From the NCBI RefSeq assembly GCF_001990485.1, contig NZ_LBFC01000021.1:1-64000 (forward strand): a stretch of 64,000 bases of DNA, read 5' to 3'. Below, piece by piece: positions 16,236 to 24,168 of the stretch. The first letter of the stretch is position 1. Every line of letters begins with the position of its first letter. The DNA comes from Thermosipho affectus (GTDB taxonomy: Bacteria > Thermotogota > Thermotogae > Thermotogales > Fervidobacteriaceae). The notes beneath the pieces are model-generated. The model ran no database searches. It worked only from the letters and a program-made list of their open reading frames with translations, and was not told where the DNA came from. A program made the translations under genes and the position numbers.

Positions 16236-16266
16236 ATAAAAGTCCTAGTTCTTTTGAACTAGGACT
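16236..16266 (-). terminator. Terminator of the opp operon
   Basis: AGTCCTAGTTC and GAACTAGGACT pair over 11 bases around TTTT, followed on the minus strand by TTTTATT. The oppF stop codon lies in the hairpin. Confidence 0.85.
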
Positions 16267-17269
16267 AAATTTTTCCTTCTTCAACTAAATAGCAAGAAAC
16301 ATAATGTTCATTTCCCAAGTTTTTTAATGGTGGATGTGGATTATCTTTACAAAGATTAGTTCTAAATGGGCATCTATTGTAAAATCTACACCTTTGAGGA
16401 GGATTTATTGGTTTACTTACAGAACCGATTATATTTGGTTCTTCTTTTTTATAGTCTGGGTCTGGAACTGGAACCGCGGAAAGCAATGCTTTGGTGTATG
16501 GGTGTAATGGATTGAACAATATTTCTTCTGCATCTGCATACTCAACGATTTTTCCCAAATACATTACTGCTATTTTATCACACATGTATCTAGCAACTGC
16601 GAAATCGTGCGTGATATACAAATAGCTCATATTATATTTTTCTTGTAAATCCATTAGAAGGTTCATAACACCTGTTCTAACTGAGACATCTAACATTGAA
16701 GTTGGTTCATCTGCCACTATAAAACTAGGTTCTAGTACAAGTGCCCTTGCTATTGCAACCCTTTGTCTTTGTCCACCAGAAAGTTCGTGTGGATATCTCC
16801 ACAAGAAACTAGATGGAGGAGTAAGACCTACGTCTTGTAATAATTTTTCAACTTTTTCTTCTCTGTCTTTCAATGTTCCTATGTTGTATATGTTTAGTGG
16901 TTCTGCAATAATATCAAATATTGTCATTCTTGGATTCAAAGATTCATATGGATCTTGAAATATCATTTGTACTTTTTTGTGATATTCCAGATGTGAAGAA
17001 AATTGATGTATTTCTTTACCTTCAATGTAAACTTTTCCATCGGTTGGTTTTTCAAGCCCTACAATGACCTTTCCCGTTGTGGTTTTTCCGCATCCAGATT
17101 CACCAACAAGTCCCAATGACTTACCACGTTTTATTTCAAATGAAACATCATCGACTGCGTGAACAAAATGATGTACTTTTGAAAATAACCCCCTATCTGC
17201 CGGAAAAAATTTTTTTAACCTTTCAACTTTTAATATAGTATCGACTTTATTAGAGCTTAGTTTTTGCAT
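16265..17269 (-). CDS. oppF: Oligopeptide ABC transporter ATP-binding protein OppF
   Basis: A 334-residue ATPase. Walker A is GESGCGKTT, the signature is LSGGQRQRVAIARAL, and Walker B is FIVADEPTSMLDVS. The C-terminal OppD/F extension has the cysteine-containing segment CRFYNRCPFRTNLC, which in this family can bind an iron-sulfur cluster. It powers peptide uptake with OppD. The ATG overlaps oppD by 20 bases and has AGAGGTGAG ahead. Confidence 0.95.
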   Translation of the reverse strand: MQKLSSNKVDTILKVERLKKFFPADRGLFSKVHHFVHAVDDVSFEIKRGKSLGLVGESGCGKTTTGKVIVGLEKPTDGKVYIEGKEIHQFSSHLEYHKKVQMIFQDPYESLNPRMTIFDIIAEPLNIYNIGTLKDREEKVEKLLQDVGLTPPSSFLWRYPHELSGGQRQRVAIARALVLEPSFIVADEPTSMLDVSVRTGVMNLLMDLQEKYNMSYLYITHDFAVARYMCDKIAVMYLGKIVEYADAEEILFNPLHPYTKALLSAVPVPDPDYKKEEPNIIGSVSKPINPPQRCRFYNRCPFRTNLCKDNPHPPLKNLGNEHYVSCYLVEEGKI

Positions 17270-18254
17270 TTTTTCTCACCTCTTCATTTAAAGGATACCA
17301 ACATGCTACAAAGTGCCCATTTTCAATTTCCTTGTATTCAGGTTCTTCATTTTTACATTTTTCAGTTGCCCACGGACATCTTGGAGCAAACCTACAACCT
17401 TTTGGTGGTTTTAGAAGGTTAGGTGGTTCACCTGGAATTGTTAAAAGTTTTTTCTTTTCACCTACAGTACTTGGAAATGCGTTCATTAGCAAAAATGTAT
17501 AAGGATGCATTGGATTTTTGAATATATCATGGGAGCTTCCAAGTTCAACAAATTTTCCCGCGTACATAACCGCAATTTTGTCACTTACTTCGGCTATAAC
17601 TGCTATGTCATGGGAAATGTAAATCATAGCCATGTTTAATTGTTTTTGAATTTTTTTCATTTCTTTTAGTATCTTATCTTGAACAATTACGTCAAGAGCC
17701 GTTGTTGGTTCGTCGGCTATTATAACTTTTGGGTCACAAGATAAAGCTAGTGCTATAACTGCTCTTTGCTTCATTCCACCACTGTATTGATGAGGATATT
17801 GTTCCATTCTTTTTGGATCAAGGCCTACGAGTTCAAATAACTTTGCTACTTTATTTTTTGCGTCATCAATACTCATTTCCGGATAGTGTGTTAAAATAGC
17901 CTCTACGATTTGATCACCAACCTTGTATACGGGATTTAAGGAATTCATAGCTGCTTGAAAAATCATTGCAAGACCTTTCCATCTGTATTTCCTCATTTTA
18001 TCTTCTGGAAGCGAAACAAGATCAACCATCTTTCCATTGTCGTTAAAAAGCACTTGACCTTTCTTGAATTCGCCATTTTCTGGTAATAGTCTTAGCATTG
18101 TCATTGAAACAGATGTTTTTCCGCATCCGGATTCTCCTACTATTCCTAGACTTTCGCCACTATTAAGGGTAAAATTTATACCATCGACGGCTTTAACGTA
18201 CCCCATTTTGGTTTTGTAATGCATTTTTAAGTTTTTTACTTCAAGTAACGCCAC
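17250..18254 (-). CDS. oppD: Oligopeptide ABC transporter ATP-binding protein OppD
   Basis: A 334-residue ATPase. Walker A is GESGCGKTS, the signature is YSGGMKQRAVIALAL, and Walker B is VIIADEPTTALDV. The C-terminal extension carries CRFAPRCPWATEKC. The start codon is GTG, preceded by AGAGGTGAT. It lies six bases after oppC and overlaps oppF. Confidence 0.95.
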   Translation of the reverse strand: MALLEVKNLKMHYKTKMGYVKAVDGINFTLNSGESLGIVGESGCGKTSVSMTMLRLLPENGEFKKGQVLFNDNGKMVDLVSLPEDKMRKYRWKGLAMIFQAAMNSLNPVYKVGDQIVEAILTHYPEMSIDDAKNKVAKLFELVGLDPKRMEQYPHQYSGGMKQRAVIALALSCDPKVIIADEPTTALDVIVQDKILKEMKKIQKQLNMAMIYISHDIAVIAEVSDKIAVMYAGKFVELGSSHDIFKNPMHPYTFLLMNAFPSTVGEKKKLLTIPGEPPNLLKPPKGCRFAPRCPWATEKCKNEEPEYKEIENGHFVACWYPLNEEVRKNAKTKL

Positions 18255-18260
18255 TTTAAA

Positions 18261-20783
18261 TCACCTCTTTCTAAGTCTTGGGTTTACAATTTCTTCAAGT
18301 CCTCTTCCAAGGAAGTAGAAGCCAGAACAGAATATAGTTATTATTAACCCTGCTGGGACCCATAGCCACCAGTATGATCCTATATTTCCAGATGAAAGAT
18401 ATCCTGACGTCCACGCAGTGTTTATCATTATACCCCAACTTATTCTTATTCTTAAAAGTCCAAAAAAGCTTAAAGAGGCTTCTGAAAATACCGCACCTGT
18501 TACATTAAACATCATATAAAGGAATGAAAGAGGCATTACATTGGGAATTATGTGGTTGAATATAATATATCTATTACTTGCACCTGCAACTTTTGCAGCT
18601 TCAATGTATGGTTTTACCTTTATTGTTAGTGCTTGTGCTTTAATTACAAGTGTTATCCCACCAAAACCGCCTAGTAAACCAAGTATCAATGCAAGCCAAA
18701 ATAGGTTTAATTTGAAAAATCCTGATAAAACAATCAAGAAAGCAATACCTGGGAATAGTAACATTAAATCGGCAAGTCTCATAAAGAAAGTATCTATAAA
18801 TCCACCATAATATGCTGCAGTAGTACCAATAATAGTACCAATTGTTACGGTTATAATTGCAGCTAAAAAACCAAGCATAAATTCACTTGGGGTGCTCCTC
18901 CAAAGTTGCATAAAGATATCTCTACCACCTGGATCAGTTCCCAAAATATGCCACCTGTTTGGAGGTAATGGATGTTGAATTCCAAGCTTGGATTCAAGGG
19001 CAAGTTTGTTGTAGATTGATACTATAAGTTTTTCTGCATCTTTTTTTGATAATTTGATCGGTTTGTTTAAGTGTTCAACGGCTTTTGAAAGATCAGTTTG
19101 AGTGTTTAATACATCACTATATTTTTTTACCCAATAACTTTTGTCGTTTAATTTGGATATATATTTTTCTAAAAGAGATTTAAGTAAGTATTTTGATATT
19201 ACATAGTAATCATTGAATTTATTTAAAAAGTTTATTTCTTCCGTTAGTTGTGGAGTTTTTTCTAATTTTTCAACTATATCCAATCTTTGATAATTAATAT
19301 CCCCTGCGCTTTTAATGTTATTTATTATAAGATCAAAGTGTTTTGTACCTTTGGTAGCGTATGACAAAAGATTTGTCATAGGAGAGTCAAGTTCTGGAAT
19401 CAGCTTGGTGTAATCAAGTGAAAGGTAAATTTCGGGTATATTTATTTTGTCAATTGGTTCATTATAAATATTTGATATTATTGTGAGCATGAAAGCTCTT
19501 GAGTTTGCAACAATTTTGTAAAGTTCTTCTTGTTTTTTTCTAAAACTTTTTTGGATTTCCGGATATTTTTCTAAGTTATTTTCAAGTTTTGCTTTAGTTT
19601 CCGGAGAAAGGTCAAAAGAAATAATGGCAAGGTTAATACCAGAAAGGTTATCTAAAATTATTTGTGGATGATTTAAATCAAATGTTAGATCAAGTTTTTC
19701 AAAAATTTTCTTGAGTTCTGAGAAATATTGATTAATTCTATCTAAGTTTGAATTTTTGTTTTCCGGATTTTCTAAGTTAGGTATTTTTTCTTCAGCCAAT
19801 TTTAGTAAGTTTTTGTAATGTGAATTTTCCAATTTTGATATTATGTTTTTGTCCTTTTTTATTTTTGCGTATGTTAATATGTCCACTAACGTATTGAAAA
19901 TGGTTGATTTTGCTAAATCAAATGTAGGAATCTTATTTGTTCTGATGATATTTTCAAGGTCATTTTGGCTGTTAACAGAAATTTGTATCTCTATGTCACC
20001 ATTTTTTACAAGCTCGTTAACTGCGGAGAAGATTTTGTTCTTGGCTTCTGATTTTTCAAATTCAGAATATGTGTTTTTCAACATTTCGTTAAATTTATTC
20101 CTTTCATTTTTTCCTTTTATTATTTTTATCCATAAACCTATTGTGGAAACTTCACGACTGTTTTTGTATTCTGAAAGTGCAATTGCTAATGTTTTTGTAT
20201 CTGCTTTTTTCAATAATTTTTTAAATGAAATTAGTGAAAACTTTTTCCTATTACCAATTTCAATAATGTTTGACAATGGTTTAATTGAAATAAGGTTATG
20301 CTCTAAAAGTTGAGAAACTTGGGTTTGAAATCTCATTCTTTCTTTTATTGGGAAATAGCTGTCAACGATGGTATCTAAAATATGTCGAAAGGCTTGAGCA
20401 TAATCAAGGTTTACAAATTGTCTTTGTGCGGCGTCTATTTTTTGTTCTATTTGTTTTTTGAAATCTTCTCCTTGATCTAAAAATGAATACGTGAAGATTC
20501 TTGCAGGTGGAATTTCTATGCCTTTAATTACATTTTGTGGAGACATGTATTTTGATATGTATGAAATATCTTGTACCCTTGGATCCGTACCAGTAACAGG
20601 ATTATAGATACTGTGATCTACAAATTGCCAAGCGATAGGATATGTTAGTGCAAAAATTCCGAAAATTATAATTATTGATAAACCAAAGATTCCCATTTTA
20701 TTTTCTTTAAATAAATTCCAGTTCTTTTTAAAATTTCTCAAAAATAGCTTAAATTTAATTTTTGTAATGGATTCATTTGCCAT
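18261..20783 (-). CDS. oppC: Oligopeptide ABC permease OppC with large extracytoplasmic insertion
   Basis: An 840-residue permease, against about 300 for a normal OppC. Residues 1-55 hold the usual N-terminal tail and first membrane helix (about 31-53). The usual start of the core, HILGTDPGGRD, comes only at about residue 612, followed by five helices and the EAA-loop region (EAAKVAGASNRYIIFNHIIPN). About 550 residues between them are charged, helical and without membrane segments; topology places them outside the membrane. The frame is intact throughout. This segment might bind the peptide-binding protein OppA or peptides. Comparable long OppC proteins may occur in other Thermotogae; I cannot check this here. 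Confidence 0.93.
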   Translation of the reverse strand: MANESITKIKFKLFLRNFKKNWNLFKENKMGIFGLSIIIIFGIFALTYPIAWQFVDHSIYNPVTGTDPRVQDISYISKYMSPQNVIKGIEIPPARIFTYSFLDQGEDFKKQIEQKIDAAQRQFVNLDYAQAFRHILDTIVDSYFPIKERMRFQTQVSQLLEHNLISIKPLSNIIEIGNRKKFSLISFKKLLKKADTKTLAIALSEYKNSREVSTIGLWIKIIKGKNERNKFNEMLKNTYSEFEKSEAKNKIFSAVNELVKNGDIEIQISVNSQNDLENIIRTNKIPTFDLAKSTIFNTLVDILTYAKIKKDKNIISKLENSHYKNLLKLAEEKIPNLENPENKNSNLDRINQYFSELKKIFEKLDLTFDLNHPQIILDNLSGINLAIISFDLSPETKAKLENNLEKYPEIQKSFRKKQEELYKIVANSRAFMLTIISNIYNEPIDKINIPEIYLSLDYTKLIPELDSPMTNLLSYATKGTKHFDLIINNIKSAGDINYQRLDIVEKLEKTPQLTEEINFLNKFNDYYVISKYLLKSLLEKYISKLNDKSYWVKKYSDVLNTQTDLSKAVEHLNKPIKLSKKDAEKLIVSIYNKLALESKLGIQHPLPPNRWHILGTDPGGRDIFMQLWRSTPSEFMLGFLAAIITVTIGTIIGTTAAYYGGFIDTFFMRLADLMLLFPGIAFLIVLSGFFKLNLFWLALILGLLGGFGGITLVIKAQALTIKVKPYIEAAKVAGASNRYIIFNHIIPNVMPLSFLYMMFNVTGAVFSEASLSFFGLLRIRISWGIMINTAWTSGYLSSGNIGSYWWLWVPAGLIITIFCSGFYFLGRGLEEIVNPRLRKR

Positions 20784-20796
20784 CTATTTTCACCCC

Positions 20797-22230
20797 TCAA
20801 TATCTAATTCTAGGATCAAGTATTGCATATAGGATATCTGCAACCAAATGAGCTATAAGTATAAAAACACCGGTAAACGTTAAACATCCCATTGCAAGAG
20901 GTGTATCTTGGACAAGTGTGGCGTTTAAAAGAGTAAGTCCCATACCTTTCCAAGAAAACATTGTTTCGGTAATAACACCGCCACTAACTGTAGTTGCAAG
21001 TGAAAGTACAAAACTTGTAACTAAAGGTAGAAGAGCTGTTCTTGCTGCATGTTTATCTCTTACCACTTTGTCTGGAAGACCTTTAGCTTTAGCAGTTGTA
21101 ATGTAATCTTCTTTTATTATTTCGAGCATGGTATCTCTCATTACTAACATACTACCTGCAAATCCCAATATTGTGAGGGATAAAACTGGTAATATCACAT
21201 GGTAAATTATATCCAATGCGTAGTATCCGTATCCATTAAACAACCAGTATAATATAATAATTGAGATCCCAGAAAAGGTTATACTAAGCATAGATACTGT
21301 CTTAGATTTTTTAGTTTTCATAAATGTGGCAACAATTAGTCCAACTGTCCAGAAAACAACCATTAAAAATGCACTTAAAAGTAATCTAATAAACACATCC
21401 TGTGTTGAAAAACTTACATTTAACCACTTCGATGGTTCTATAAACCCACTAATTGGGAAGATTTTCAGAACAACACCAAAAAGCCAAATCATAATGAGCA
21501 TAAAGAAAGGCGTAAATATTGTCCAAAAAATAATTCCAACAAAAGTTGCCACTTTATCTGAAATGCCACCGCGTTTCCAAGCTATTCTTTTTCCAAGATT
21601 GTATCCTAAGATATATGATGAAAGGGTTGTCATTAAAAATAGAAATACTGTTCGAGGGAGCCTTTCGGCAATGATTTCTTCAACAGGTTTTGGATATTCG
21701 GAAAATGATATGCCAAGTTCTAAGTTAAAGAAATTTCGCATATGCTTTGCGTATTTTACGTACCACGGGTCACCAACACCAAATAATTTTTTTATTTTTT
21801 CCATCATCTCAGGTTGTTTCATGATTTTTGGATCAAGAAATTTAGAAGTATAATCACCTGGCATTGCAAGGAATATGAAAAATACAACGGTTATATATAT
21901 TATTAACAAGATTAACATCTGATATATTCTGTTTCTTATAAACTTAAAGAGGCCGGGTAATGGTAGTGAAAATAAGTACAAAACAATAGAAAGCAAATAA
22001 TTAAATCTTGGACTAAATATAAAGAAGTATTTAAATCCAAAAAACGCTGAAAAATAAAGTAAAAGTGAAATAATCAAAAATATATAATGATGAATTTTTT
22101 TTGTATTAAATGCTGTTGTAATTATTGCGAACAGTGGTAATATTACTCCAAAAGAAGTGTATGGATGGATAAATAACAATACAAAAAATACTAATACTAT
22201 TATTAACTGCATCCAAAGTTTTGTATTCAT
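20797..22230 (-). CDS. oppB: Oligopeptide ABC permease OppB, N-terminally extended
   Basis: A 477-residue permease. The family core is clear: PGDY about residue 124, RLPRTVFLFLMTTL, and the loop DYITTAKAKGLPDKVV with LPLVTSFVLSL. The family is usually near 310-340 residues. Here about 95 extra N-terminal residues hold several hydrophobic helices before the usual first helix. ATG 22230 follows AAGGAGAGGTGAAA; a GTG two codons earlier is less well spaced. With OppC it forms the membrane channel. Confidence 0.92.
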   Translation of the reverse strand: MNTKLWMQLIIVLVFFVLLFIHPYTSFGVILPLFAIITTAFNTKKIHHYIFLIISLLLYFSAFFGFKYFFIFSPRFNYLLSIVLYLFSLPLPGLFKFIRNRIYQMLILLIIYITVVFFIFLAMPGDYTSKFLDPKIMKQPEMMEKIKKLFGVGDPWYVKYAKHMRNFFNLELGISFSEYPKPVEEIIAERLPRTVFLFLMTTLSSYILGYNLGKRIAWKRGGISDKVATFVGIIFWTIFTPFFMLIMIWLFGVVLKIFPISGFIEPSKWLNVSFSTQDVFIRLLLSAFLMVVFWTVGLIVATFMKTKKSKTVSMLSITFSGISIIILYWLFNGYGYYALDIIYHVILPVLSLTILGFAGSMLVMRDTMLEIIKEDYITTAKAKGLPDKVVRDKHAARTALLPLVTSFVLSLATTVSGGVITETMFSWKGMGLTLLNATLVQDTPLAMGCLTFTGVFILIAHLVADILYAILDPRIRY

Positions 22231-22255
22231 TTTCACCTCTCCTTTTTGTAGAATT

Positions 22256-22282: not shown

Positions 22283-24106
22283 TTATTTTACTTTCATTAC
22301 GTTTTCTGGGAATCCATTGTAGTTTTGAATACCATCAAGTGTATCTGTATATGGAAATTGTATGGTATCTCTATATGCTTCGTAAATTGGTGTTGTAAAG
22401 AGTATTATATATGGAAGATCATCTGCAAGTAATTGTTGAGCTTCTTTTATGGCAGCAACAGCTTCGTCAAAATTATCAGCCATTTCAAATTCTTCAACTA
22501 AGGCATCAAATTCTGGATTGTTGTATCCTGGGGTGTTAAAACCTTCTGGAGCCATTTGGTCAGATGACCAGAAACTCTTAAAGTATGTTGGAACTCTTCC
22601 GATACCCCAACCAAGCATGTACATATCAAAATCAACTTCGTCAAATGCCCTTGTTACAATTTCATTAAAATCGGTGAGTTTCACATCGACGGGTATTCCG
22701 AGGTCTTTAGCCCATTGTTCAATGTAAATTGCCGTTGTTGCTCTCATTGGGTCATATTCTCCGGATGGGGAAAGTAATTCAAGATCTGGAACGTATTTTC
22801 CATCGGGACCTTTGAGCCCTTTTCCGCGTTTGCTTATAGGATTTGCTGGGTTATTCGGGTTAATTACAGGTTCTTGATCCCAACTAAATCCGGCTTTTTT
22901 GAGGAGTTCAACTGCTAGTTGGTATCTTTCGGCTCTTGAGAGCCCTTCTCCTATAGTCTTCACATCAGGATTAAACCAGAACGTATTTGCGGGTGGAACG
23001 GGAGTTGCAAGAGGAATTGCTTTTCCCTGAAGGACTCTGTTACAAATATAATCTCTATCTATCAACGCGGCAATTGCTTGCCTGAATTCTTTTATGTTAA
23101 ATGGGAATTTTCTCATGTTAAACGCAAGGTATCTGAAACCAAGTGATGGATTTACCGTTAATTTTATACCAGGTACGCCTTTCAGAGATTCAAATTCACC
23201 AGAGGTCAGACCATTTGGATTAAGAACGAAATCCACGTCACCTTTTTGAAGTGCTTGGAGCGCGACAGATTTGTTTCCGTATATTCTGTATATAATTTTA
23301 TCAATGTATGGACCGTTGGCTACTTCGAGCTTTATGTTTCCATCCGGTTTTGGATTGTTGCTTGTCCATTTATAACCGCTGTTTGGATTTTCAACAACGA
23401 AACCTCCATTCTCAAAGTATATGGATTTTTCGCCTTTTGCCCAATAGAAATTATCTTCTACTTCCTTTTTAACTTCTACAAATGCACCTTTTTCGATTTT
23501 TCCAAGATTTAATGCTGTAATTCCTGGATCGACTACTTCTTGGCTTAATAACCAGTTAACTGGATTTTCTTGTTTTTTTGCCTTTTCCACATATGTTTCC
23601 CAGAAGTTTTTGCATACTATTGCAGTCATAAGGGTGTCATAGTAAATAGTCATAGTTTTTTTCTCTTCAAAATAGAACTTAACTGTCCAAGGATCAATTT
23701 TTTCAACTTTTTTTGGTTCATATGCTCCCGTCCAATTACCACCTGGGATTTGGAGTTCTTGGATGGTATTAAAGGTGAATACCACATCATCTGCGGTAAA
23801 TGGTGAACCATCGCTCCACCTTAAGTCTTTTCTGATTTTTACAGTAACTGTATACATTCCGTCTTCTTCAACTATTTTTGGAATTTCAGCAGCAGCCGCT
23901 GGTATTAACATTCCATCTTTATTCATAGATAAGAGTGAAGGATATTTCCAAAGTTGTACATAAAAGTTCCAAGAAGATGAACCTGAACCAAGTAAATTCC
24001 AAATATTTGTTGTTGTGATATCTTCGAGTAAAGCATAGTTAACCACTGTTTCAGCAAATAGAAAAATACTAAATAAAATAGTTAGAAATACTAACAAACG
24101 TTTCAT
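22283..24106 (-). CDS. oppA: Oligopeptide-binding protein OppA (SBP family 5)
   Basis: A 607-residue exported solute-binding protein with a signal peptide of about 18 residues (MKRLLVFLTILFSIFLFA) and no lipobox cysteine. It has family 5 segments, for example LRWSDGSPFTADDVVFTFN and RQAIAALIDRDYI. It delivers peptides, or possibly oligosaccharides as some Thermotoga homologues do, to OppBC. ATG 24106 follows GGAGGGGG; the frame stays open to 24163 but without a ribosome site. It is the first gene of oppABCDF. Confidence 0.94.
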   Translation of the reverse strand: MKRLLVFLTILFSIFLFAETVVNYALLEDITTTNIWNLLGSGSSSWNFYVQLWKYPSLLSMNKDGMLIPAAAAEIPKIVEEDGMYTVTVKIRKDLRWSDGSPFTADDVVFTFNTIQELQIPGGNWTGAYEPKKVEKIDPWTVKFYFEEKKTMTIYYDTLMTAIVCKNFWETYVEKAKKQENPVNWLLSQEVVDPGITALNLGKIEKGAFVEVKKEVEDNFYWAKGEKSIYFENGGFVVENPNSGYKWTSNNPKPDGNIKLEVANGPYIDKIIYRIYGNKSVALQALQKGDVDFVLNPNGLTSGEFESLKGVPGIKLTVNPSLGFRYLAFNMRKFPFNIKEFRQAIAALIDRDYICNRVLQGKAIPLATPVPPANTFWFNPDVKTIGEGLSRAERYQLAVELLKKAGFSWDQEPVINPNNPANPISKRGKGLKGPDGKYVPDLELLSPSGEYDPMRATTAIYIEQWAKDLGIPVDVKLTDFNEIVTRAFDEVDFDMYMLGWGIGRVPTYFKSFWSSDQMAPEGFNTPGYNNPEFDALVEEFEMADNFDEAVAAIKEAQQLLADDLPYIILFTTPIYEAYRDTIQFPYTDTLDGIQNYNGFPENVMKVK

Positions 24107-24168
24107 ATAAAGACCCCCTCCTTTTAAGAAATGTAATGTTGGCAAAGTTTTGGTAACCGACATGATAT

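Follow-up and report, generated by a model that had tools for sequence, protein, structure and literature searches.

A 536-residue helical domain in the first loop of an OppC permease from Thermosipho affectus and its possible role in docking

The opp operon

The window, i.e., the whole stretch of 64,000 nucleotides analyzed from Thermosipho affectus, contains a complete opp operon on its minus strand, with a family-5 solute-binding protein (SBP) OppA, the permeases OppB and OppC, and the ATPases OppD and OppF. Assignments were made from the reading frames and Pfam. OppA (22283..24109) has 607 residues counted from MKRLLV, with a signal peptide and no lipobox; OppB (20797..22236) has 479 residues; OppD and OppF occupy positions 17250..18254 and 16265..17269, respectively. 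No added domain was found in OppA, OppD or OppF. The system shares its core fold, EAA motif, family-5 OppA, OppD/OppF pair and operon order with the Opp/Dpp type I importers (DppBCDF and OppBCDF of E. coli, OppABCD and DppABCD of M. tuberculosis). It differs from them in a 536-residue domain added in the first loop of OppC, and in two OppB segments: an additional N-terminal membrane segment of about 96 residues, and one at residues ~270-335 that is found throughout the subfamily.

The oppC gene (18261..20783, minus strand) encodes 840 residues in a frame with an ATG start and no internal stops, and the giant loop between its first two transmembrane helices is supported by frame, Pfam, model and superposition. 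A K/R-rich, cytoplasmic N-terminus precedes TM1, which hydropathy and the model place at residues ~29-54 (20622..20699). The remaining core, TM2-TM6 with the EAA motif, spans residues 604-840 (18264..18974), as given by Pfam, model and superposition; BPD_transp_1 matches residues 649-839 with an E-value of 6.5e-21. OppC_N (PF12911) scores 18 bits at residues 21-53, under its cut-off of 23.9, and TM1 superposes in the model. The EAA motif reads 'YIEAAKVAGAS', and three transmembrane helices lie between the giant loop and this motif. Compared with DppC of E. coli and with DppC and OppC of M. tuberculosis, the modelled core superposes with Z-scores of 21-25 and 22-28% identity, TM1 being in place, and the Pfam match and superposition together indicate the usual six-helix fold. 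Scores of the locus against the NCBIfam equivalogs are far under their cut-offs.

Position and sidedness of the OppC insert

The insert comprises OppC residues 68-603 (18975..20582, minus strand), lying between 'YNPVTGTD' and 'HPLPPNRWHILGTD'. The segment leading from TM1 to the LGTDPxGRD motif reads '...YDPVVGFDRAMVGRHPAPPSWAHPLGTDP' in ordinary orthologues and 'YNPVTGTDP - insert - HPLPPNRWHILGTDPGGRD' in Thermosipho affectus, such that the few to about 15 loop residues of an ordinary OppC are replaced by about 536. The motif LGTDPGGRD begins at residue 614, with a spacing of approximately 560 residues from TM1. An earlier note had described an unbroken insertion of about 550 residues between these two landmarks, and the orthologue alignment bears this out, with ~536 residues against ~15. 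Members of the OppC family in solved structures and curated families have around 230-340 residues and a short first loop. Given that the identical architecture is found in 18 genomes, a frame error, or a gene fusion created by misassembly, is ruled out.

The giant loop is extracytoplasmic, because of the standard OppC topology, the three transmembrane helices between it and the cytoplasmic EAA motif, and the superposition of the core. This agrees with the proposal of the earlier note that the segment lies outside the membrane. Its description as charged, helix-rich and free of membrane helices also holds: the insert has 82 K+R and 69 D+E residues and a low Gly+Pro content (5.2%), its models are helical, and the hydropathy scan found no hydrophobic segment of transmembrane strength within it. 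The GC content is 28.0% for the insert against 33.9% for the core, the GC3 values being almost the same (22.9 and 24.0). Signs of foreign origin are absent, and recent gene transfer of the insert was rejected.

Distribution and selection

The insert occurs in 18 of the 103 Thermotogota genomes, always at the identical site and in this OppC only. Fifteen carriers belong to the window's family, Fervidobacteriaceae (f1), and three to a second family (f11), these names being tentative; the gene for the long OppC is split across two contigs in one genome (G102). Neither other parts of the Thermotogota genomes nor viral contigs yielded the insert, and it was absent from other phyla in one scan with patterns from close relatives. 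The close relatives that keep the importer also retain the insert, while the genomes of genus g4 and G072 have neither the long OppC nor its OppA. Alignment of the insert with ordinary OppC proteins was ruled out by the orthologue alignment.

Ordinary orthologues are found in f2 (Pseudothermotoga), f8 (Mesoaciditogaceae, Athalassotoga), Bipolaricaulota and Limnochordia. Most have 315-350 residues (range 315-377, leaving out the 441-residue L070, which has overlapping broken OppB frames), and their cores are 61-70% identical to that of the long OppC.

In comparison with the nearest relative (G080), the window's OppC is 95.7% identical outside the insert and 69.6% identical within it, with 94.9% for OppA and 90.8% for OppB. 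Among close species pairs, OppA is 91-95% identical and the insert 62-70%. Where dS is unsaturated, dN/dS in the insert is approximately 0.13 (0.023/0.180, pair L006/L007) and 0.12 (0.028/0.234, pair L012/L014), and these values indicate the insert is under purifying selection, although it evolves faster than the core. For the latter, dN/dS is near 0.005-0.04. In comparisons of more distant pairs, dN in the insert exceeds that in the core by a factor of about 4-12. Invariant positions cluster in OppC residues 52-201 and at the C-terminal junction; in the conservation analysis, the part of the insert richest in positions invariant across three lineages is residues 68-201 (20181..20582). Conservation is low across the distal half of the insert.

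Predicted fold of the insert

AlphaFold modelling of the insert alone, from five sequences, gives a folded, all-helical structure with a mean pLDDT of 70. In the full-length OppC model (37 rows, five of them with the insert), residues 150-425 (19509..20336) form a confident helical core, with pLDDT mostly 82-98 (mostly 70-95 in the insert-alone model), flanked by low confidence at residues ~63-140 and ~458-603. A disordered linker is ruled out by both models.

Residues ~167-266 (19986..20285) match the C-terminal domains of FliG from several PDB entries, with an rmsd of 1.9-2.4 Å over 86-90 residues, 16-24% identity, and Z-scores of 10.5-12.4, a range in which matches between helical folds (Z below ~13) can reflect a common arrangement. 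The match recurs in two separate model runs, both on predicted models, and in the insert-alone search the FliG rows stand well above unrelated ones, the next of which has a Z-score of 6.0; the 1lkv row of that model aligns 114 residues at 3.5 Å. Apart from FliG, the rows obtained by VIA-align for the remainder of the insert are weak and give no fold match, which is not proof of a new fold. Foldseek against the PDB returned no match of E < 0.001 for the insert.

At the sequence level, Pfam and PDB-sequence searches found no significant known domain in the insert. The Pfam family matched by most members is FliG_C (PF01706), with seven of 16 inserts and a best E-value of 0.0048; the best score, 18.9 bits against a cut-off of 23.3, means the insert is not a family member by score. 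When whole genomes were scanned with FliG_C, ten OppC inserts appeared with E-values of 0.002-0.06, ranked among FliG middle domains and MgtE, which are true distant relatives, in a list that includes a few evident false positives (e.g., a DnaE-like protein); since these inserts are orthologous, their matches are not mutually independent. Aligning the insert against FliG_C with hhalign hits the same region with a score of 35.8; block shuffles, 150 in all, reached 28.2 at most, and reversed FliG scored 20.2. A nucleotidyltransferase match (E = 0.01) disappeared with a larger profile, and internal repeats are not significant.

A FliG_C-like armadillo fold at residues ~167-266 is therefore likely from the predicted models, with weak though concordant support from sequence. 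This helical unit of ~90 residues superposes on FliG_C at ~2.0 Å, and the insert may possibly descend from FliG or MgtE_N. It differs from FliG and MgtE in being embedded in an ABC permease and not in a flagellar protein; the sequence likeness is marginal and the rest of the insert is unmatched. Helical armadillo units are protein-binding modules. Domains of the FliG/MgtE_N type also work outside the membrane in MotE, FlgY and FlbB (PMC13023049), and the insert is likewise extracytoplasmic.

As a separate observation, two Thermotogaceae proteins of ~300 residues (L138:1713-2627 and L140:1767-2630) combine an N-terminal membrane helix, a coiled coil and similarity to FliG_C/MgtE_N; they look like E-ring proteins of the FlgY/MotE type.

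OppB additions and a second inflated loop

The OppB of the window has an N-terminal extension of ~96 residues (21949..22236, minus strand) with three to four hydrophobic helices, identified by length comparison and hydropathy and restricted to f1 and f11. The earlier note had pointed to such an extension; wherever OppB and the long OppC of an f1/f11 genome were both read, the extension was present. The OppB proteins of the short-loop neighbours f2 and f8 have neither this addition nor the one found in f3, described below. One Bipolaricaulota group has an OppB of 448-456 residues alongside a short OppC, owing to other small insertions. A further hydrophobic segment relative to standard OppB, at residues ~270-335, is common to the orthologous subfamily, including its short-loop members.

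In f3 (genera g10, g11 and g14), the orthologous OppC has 950-960 residues where complete, with an insert of 645-652 residues. This insert lies before the YDPxTGxD motif, whereas that of f1/f11 lies after it; no homology between the two was detected (hhalign probability 1.9), and the f3 insert has no similarity to FliG. In the OppC core tree, f3 groups with the short-loop f2 (support 100/98), apart from f1 and f11, and the OppB tree agrees. Trees forcing the long forms together are rejected, with p-AU of 0.006 for OppC and 0.0007 for OppB, the grouping having been chosen after the first tree was seen. Given an unrelated, differently placed insert in a family that groups with a short-loop lineage, the first loop of OppC was inflated at least twice. 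Both inflations are paired with gained hydrophobic segments in OppB: ~80-98 residues at the N-terminus in f1/f11 and ~135 residues mid-protein in f3, both strongly hydrophobic, with no homology found between them.

Two candidate correlates of the long loop were discarded. No lipobox is found by pattern in the OppA of either the long-loop or the short-loop group, and extra SBP copies do not follow the loop either: f3 mostly has two OppA-like genes, but so does the short-loop genus g20, and f1 has one. In f3 genus g14, a methyl-accepting chemotaxis protein with a dCache domain, and not OppA, lies upstream of OppB (L078:8806-10950, L079:3-1895), and the OppA orthologue is elsewhere in the genome (G097:C119, G099:C6:230370).

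Other OppC proteins of the phylum also have enlarged first loops. A second OppC of the Thermosipho affectus genome (L081:4199-5824, contig C22) has 541 residues, of which ~240 lie between TM1 and the core and match no Pfam family; an inflated first loop is seen in two of the four OppC detected in this genome. In a 565-residue OppC of f9 (L088:2018-3715), the same loop carries beta-propeller repeats resembling YCF48; the hits, to PSII_BNR (3e-4) and to an HVO_0234-like propeller (2e-5), are both sub-threshold. Five OppC proteins of 464-479 residues from f6, f7, f9 and f10 (L082, L083, L084, L097 and L098) share a loop insert of ~180-200 residues unassigned to a family. The long OppC frames of L094, L095 and L100 look like false N-terminal extensions.

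Discussion

The reading we prefer, with a probability of roughly 0.45, is that the importer is otherwise standard and that its insert serves in the periplasm as a helical platform for docking, most likely of OppA, the partner we infer. The earlier note had likewise suggested that the domain might hold the binding protein. The all-helical, armadillo-like domain of ~536 residues would stand above the permease opening on the periplasmic side and dock proteins, most likely keeping OppA, which is soluble and not lipidated, on or close to the permease; the extra OppB helices might brace or complete the platform. Nothing unusual marks the core, OppA, OppD or OppF, and the insert therefore probably contributes to docking or coupling and not to the transport path.

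The nearest functional parallel is the P2 loop of MalF, which is smaller than the OppC insert and is not armadillo-like. Like the insert, P2 is a sizeable folded domain inserted on the outer side of a type I permease subunit, in the maltose importer MalFGK2, adjoining a soluble binding protein, and according to a title cited in PMC3328499 it interacts with MalE throughout the cycle. The permease family and the loop differ, however, and binding-protein contact has been reported in the case of P2, whereas for the OppC insert such contact is proposed.

Several findings speak against docking. OppA has gained no domain to match the insert, and short-loop orthologues whose OppA is equally non-lipidated manage without such an insert. 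The distal half of the insert shows little conservation, its residues ~63-140 and ~458-603 are modelled with low confidence, and the FliG_C sequence match by itself falls short of the Pfam cut-off. Moreover, given the difference in identity between OppA (91-95%) and the insert (62-70%) among close species, tight co-evolution of the two is not visible.

This much faster divergence is what would be expected of a species-specific partner, and hence fits a rather unlikely alternative in which the insert would be an envelope tether or scaffold to a partner other than OppA, such as the toga (outer sheath), peptidoglycan or another membrane protein. The same fold class is a structural connector in the periplasm, linking flagellar motor parts in FlgY/MotE (PMC13023049), and the additional OppB helices offer a possible binding site for a partner in the membrane. 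However, no partner gene is conserved beside the operon, and the conserved positions cluster toward the insert's N-terminal end, as might be expected if it touched the transporter itself.

It is less probable still that the insert is neutral or structural bulk, i.e., a captured helical domain needed for folding or stability, with no role in transport or docking. Such a view draws on the apparent status of the first OppC loop as a hot spot for domain insertion in Thermotogota, with unrelated domains in other OppC families, and on the ~4-12-fold faster evolution of the insert relative to the core. Yet all 18 carriers have kept it, at a dN/dS of ~0.12-0.13 where dS is unsaturated, and bulk alone does not predict that two lineages would independently pair an insert with new OppB segments. 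Very improbable is a permease carrying its own substrate receptor besides OppA, akin to the peptide capture that the earlier note suggested: topology does place the insert over the translocation path, but sequence and structure searches found no fold typical of binding proteins, of peptide or carbohydrate binding, or of any known ligand binding. Genomes with the long OppC almost always have OppA as well, and the variability of the distal half does not suit a ligand site.

Beyond the docking platform itself, a wider reading is somewhat unlikely at present: that two Thermotogota lineages independently built one new kind of importer, with a giant helical OppC docking tower and an OppB membrane module, stable and possibly permanently loaded with its SBP, one of the towers using a FliG-type armadillo domain. 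In the open-licence literature, no paper was found on an OppC with such a giant loop domain, nor one describing an armadillo fold of the FliG/MgtE type within an ABC transporter, where the present models would place it. A folded 536-residue OppC domain, reinvented in a related lineage together with OppB additions, amounts to a natural experiment on the limits of type I importers, the limit in question being whether substrate is delivered by a diffusing or by a docked binding protein.
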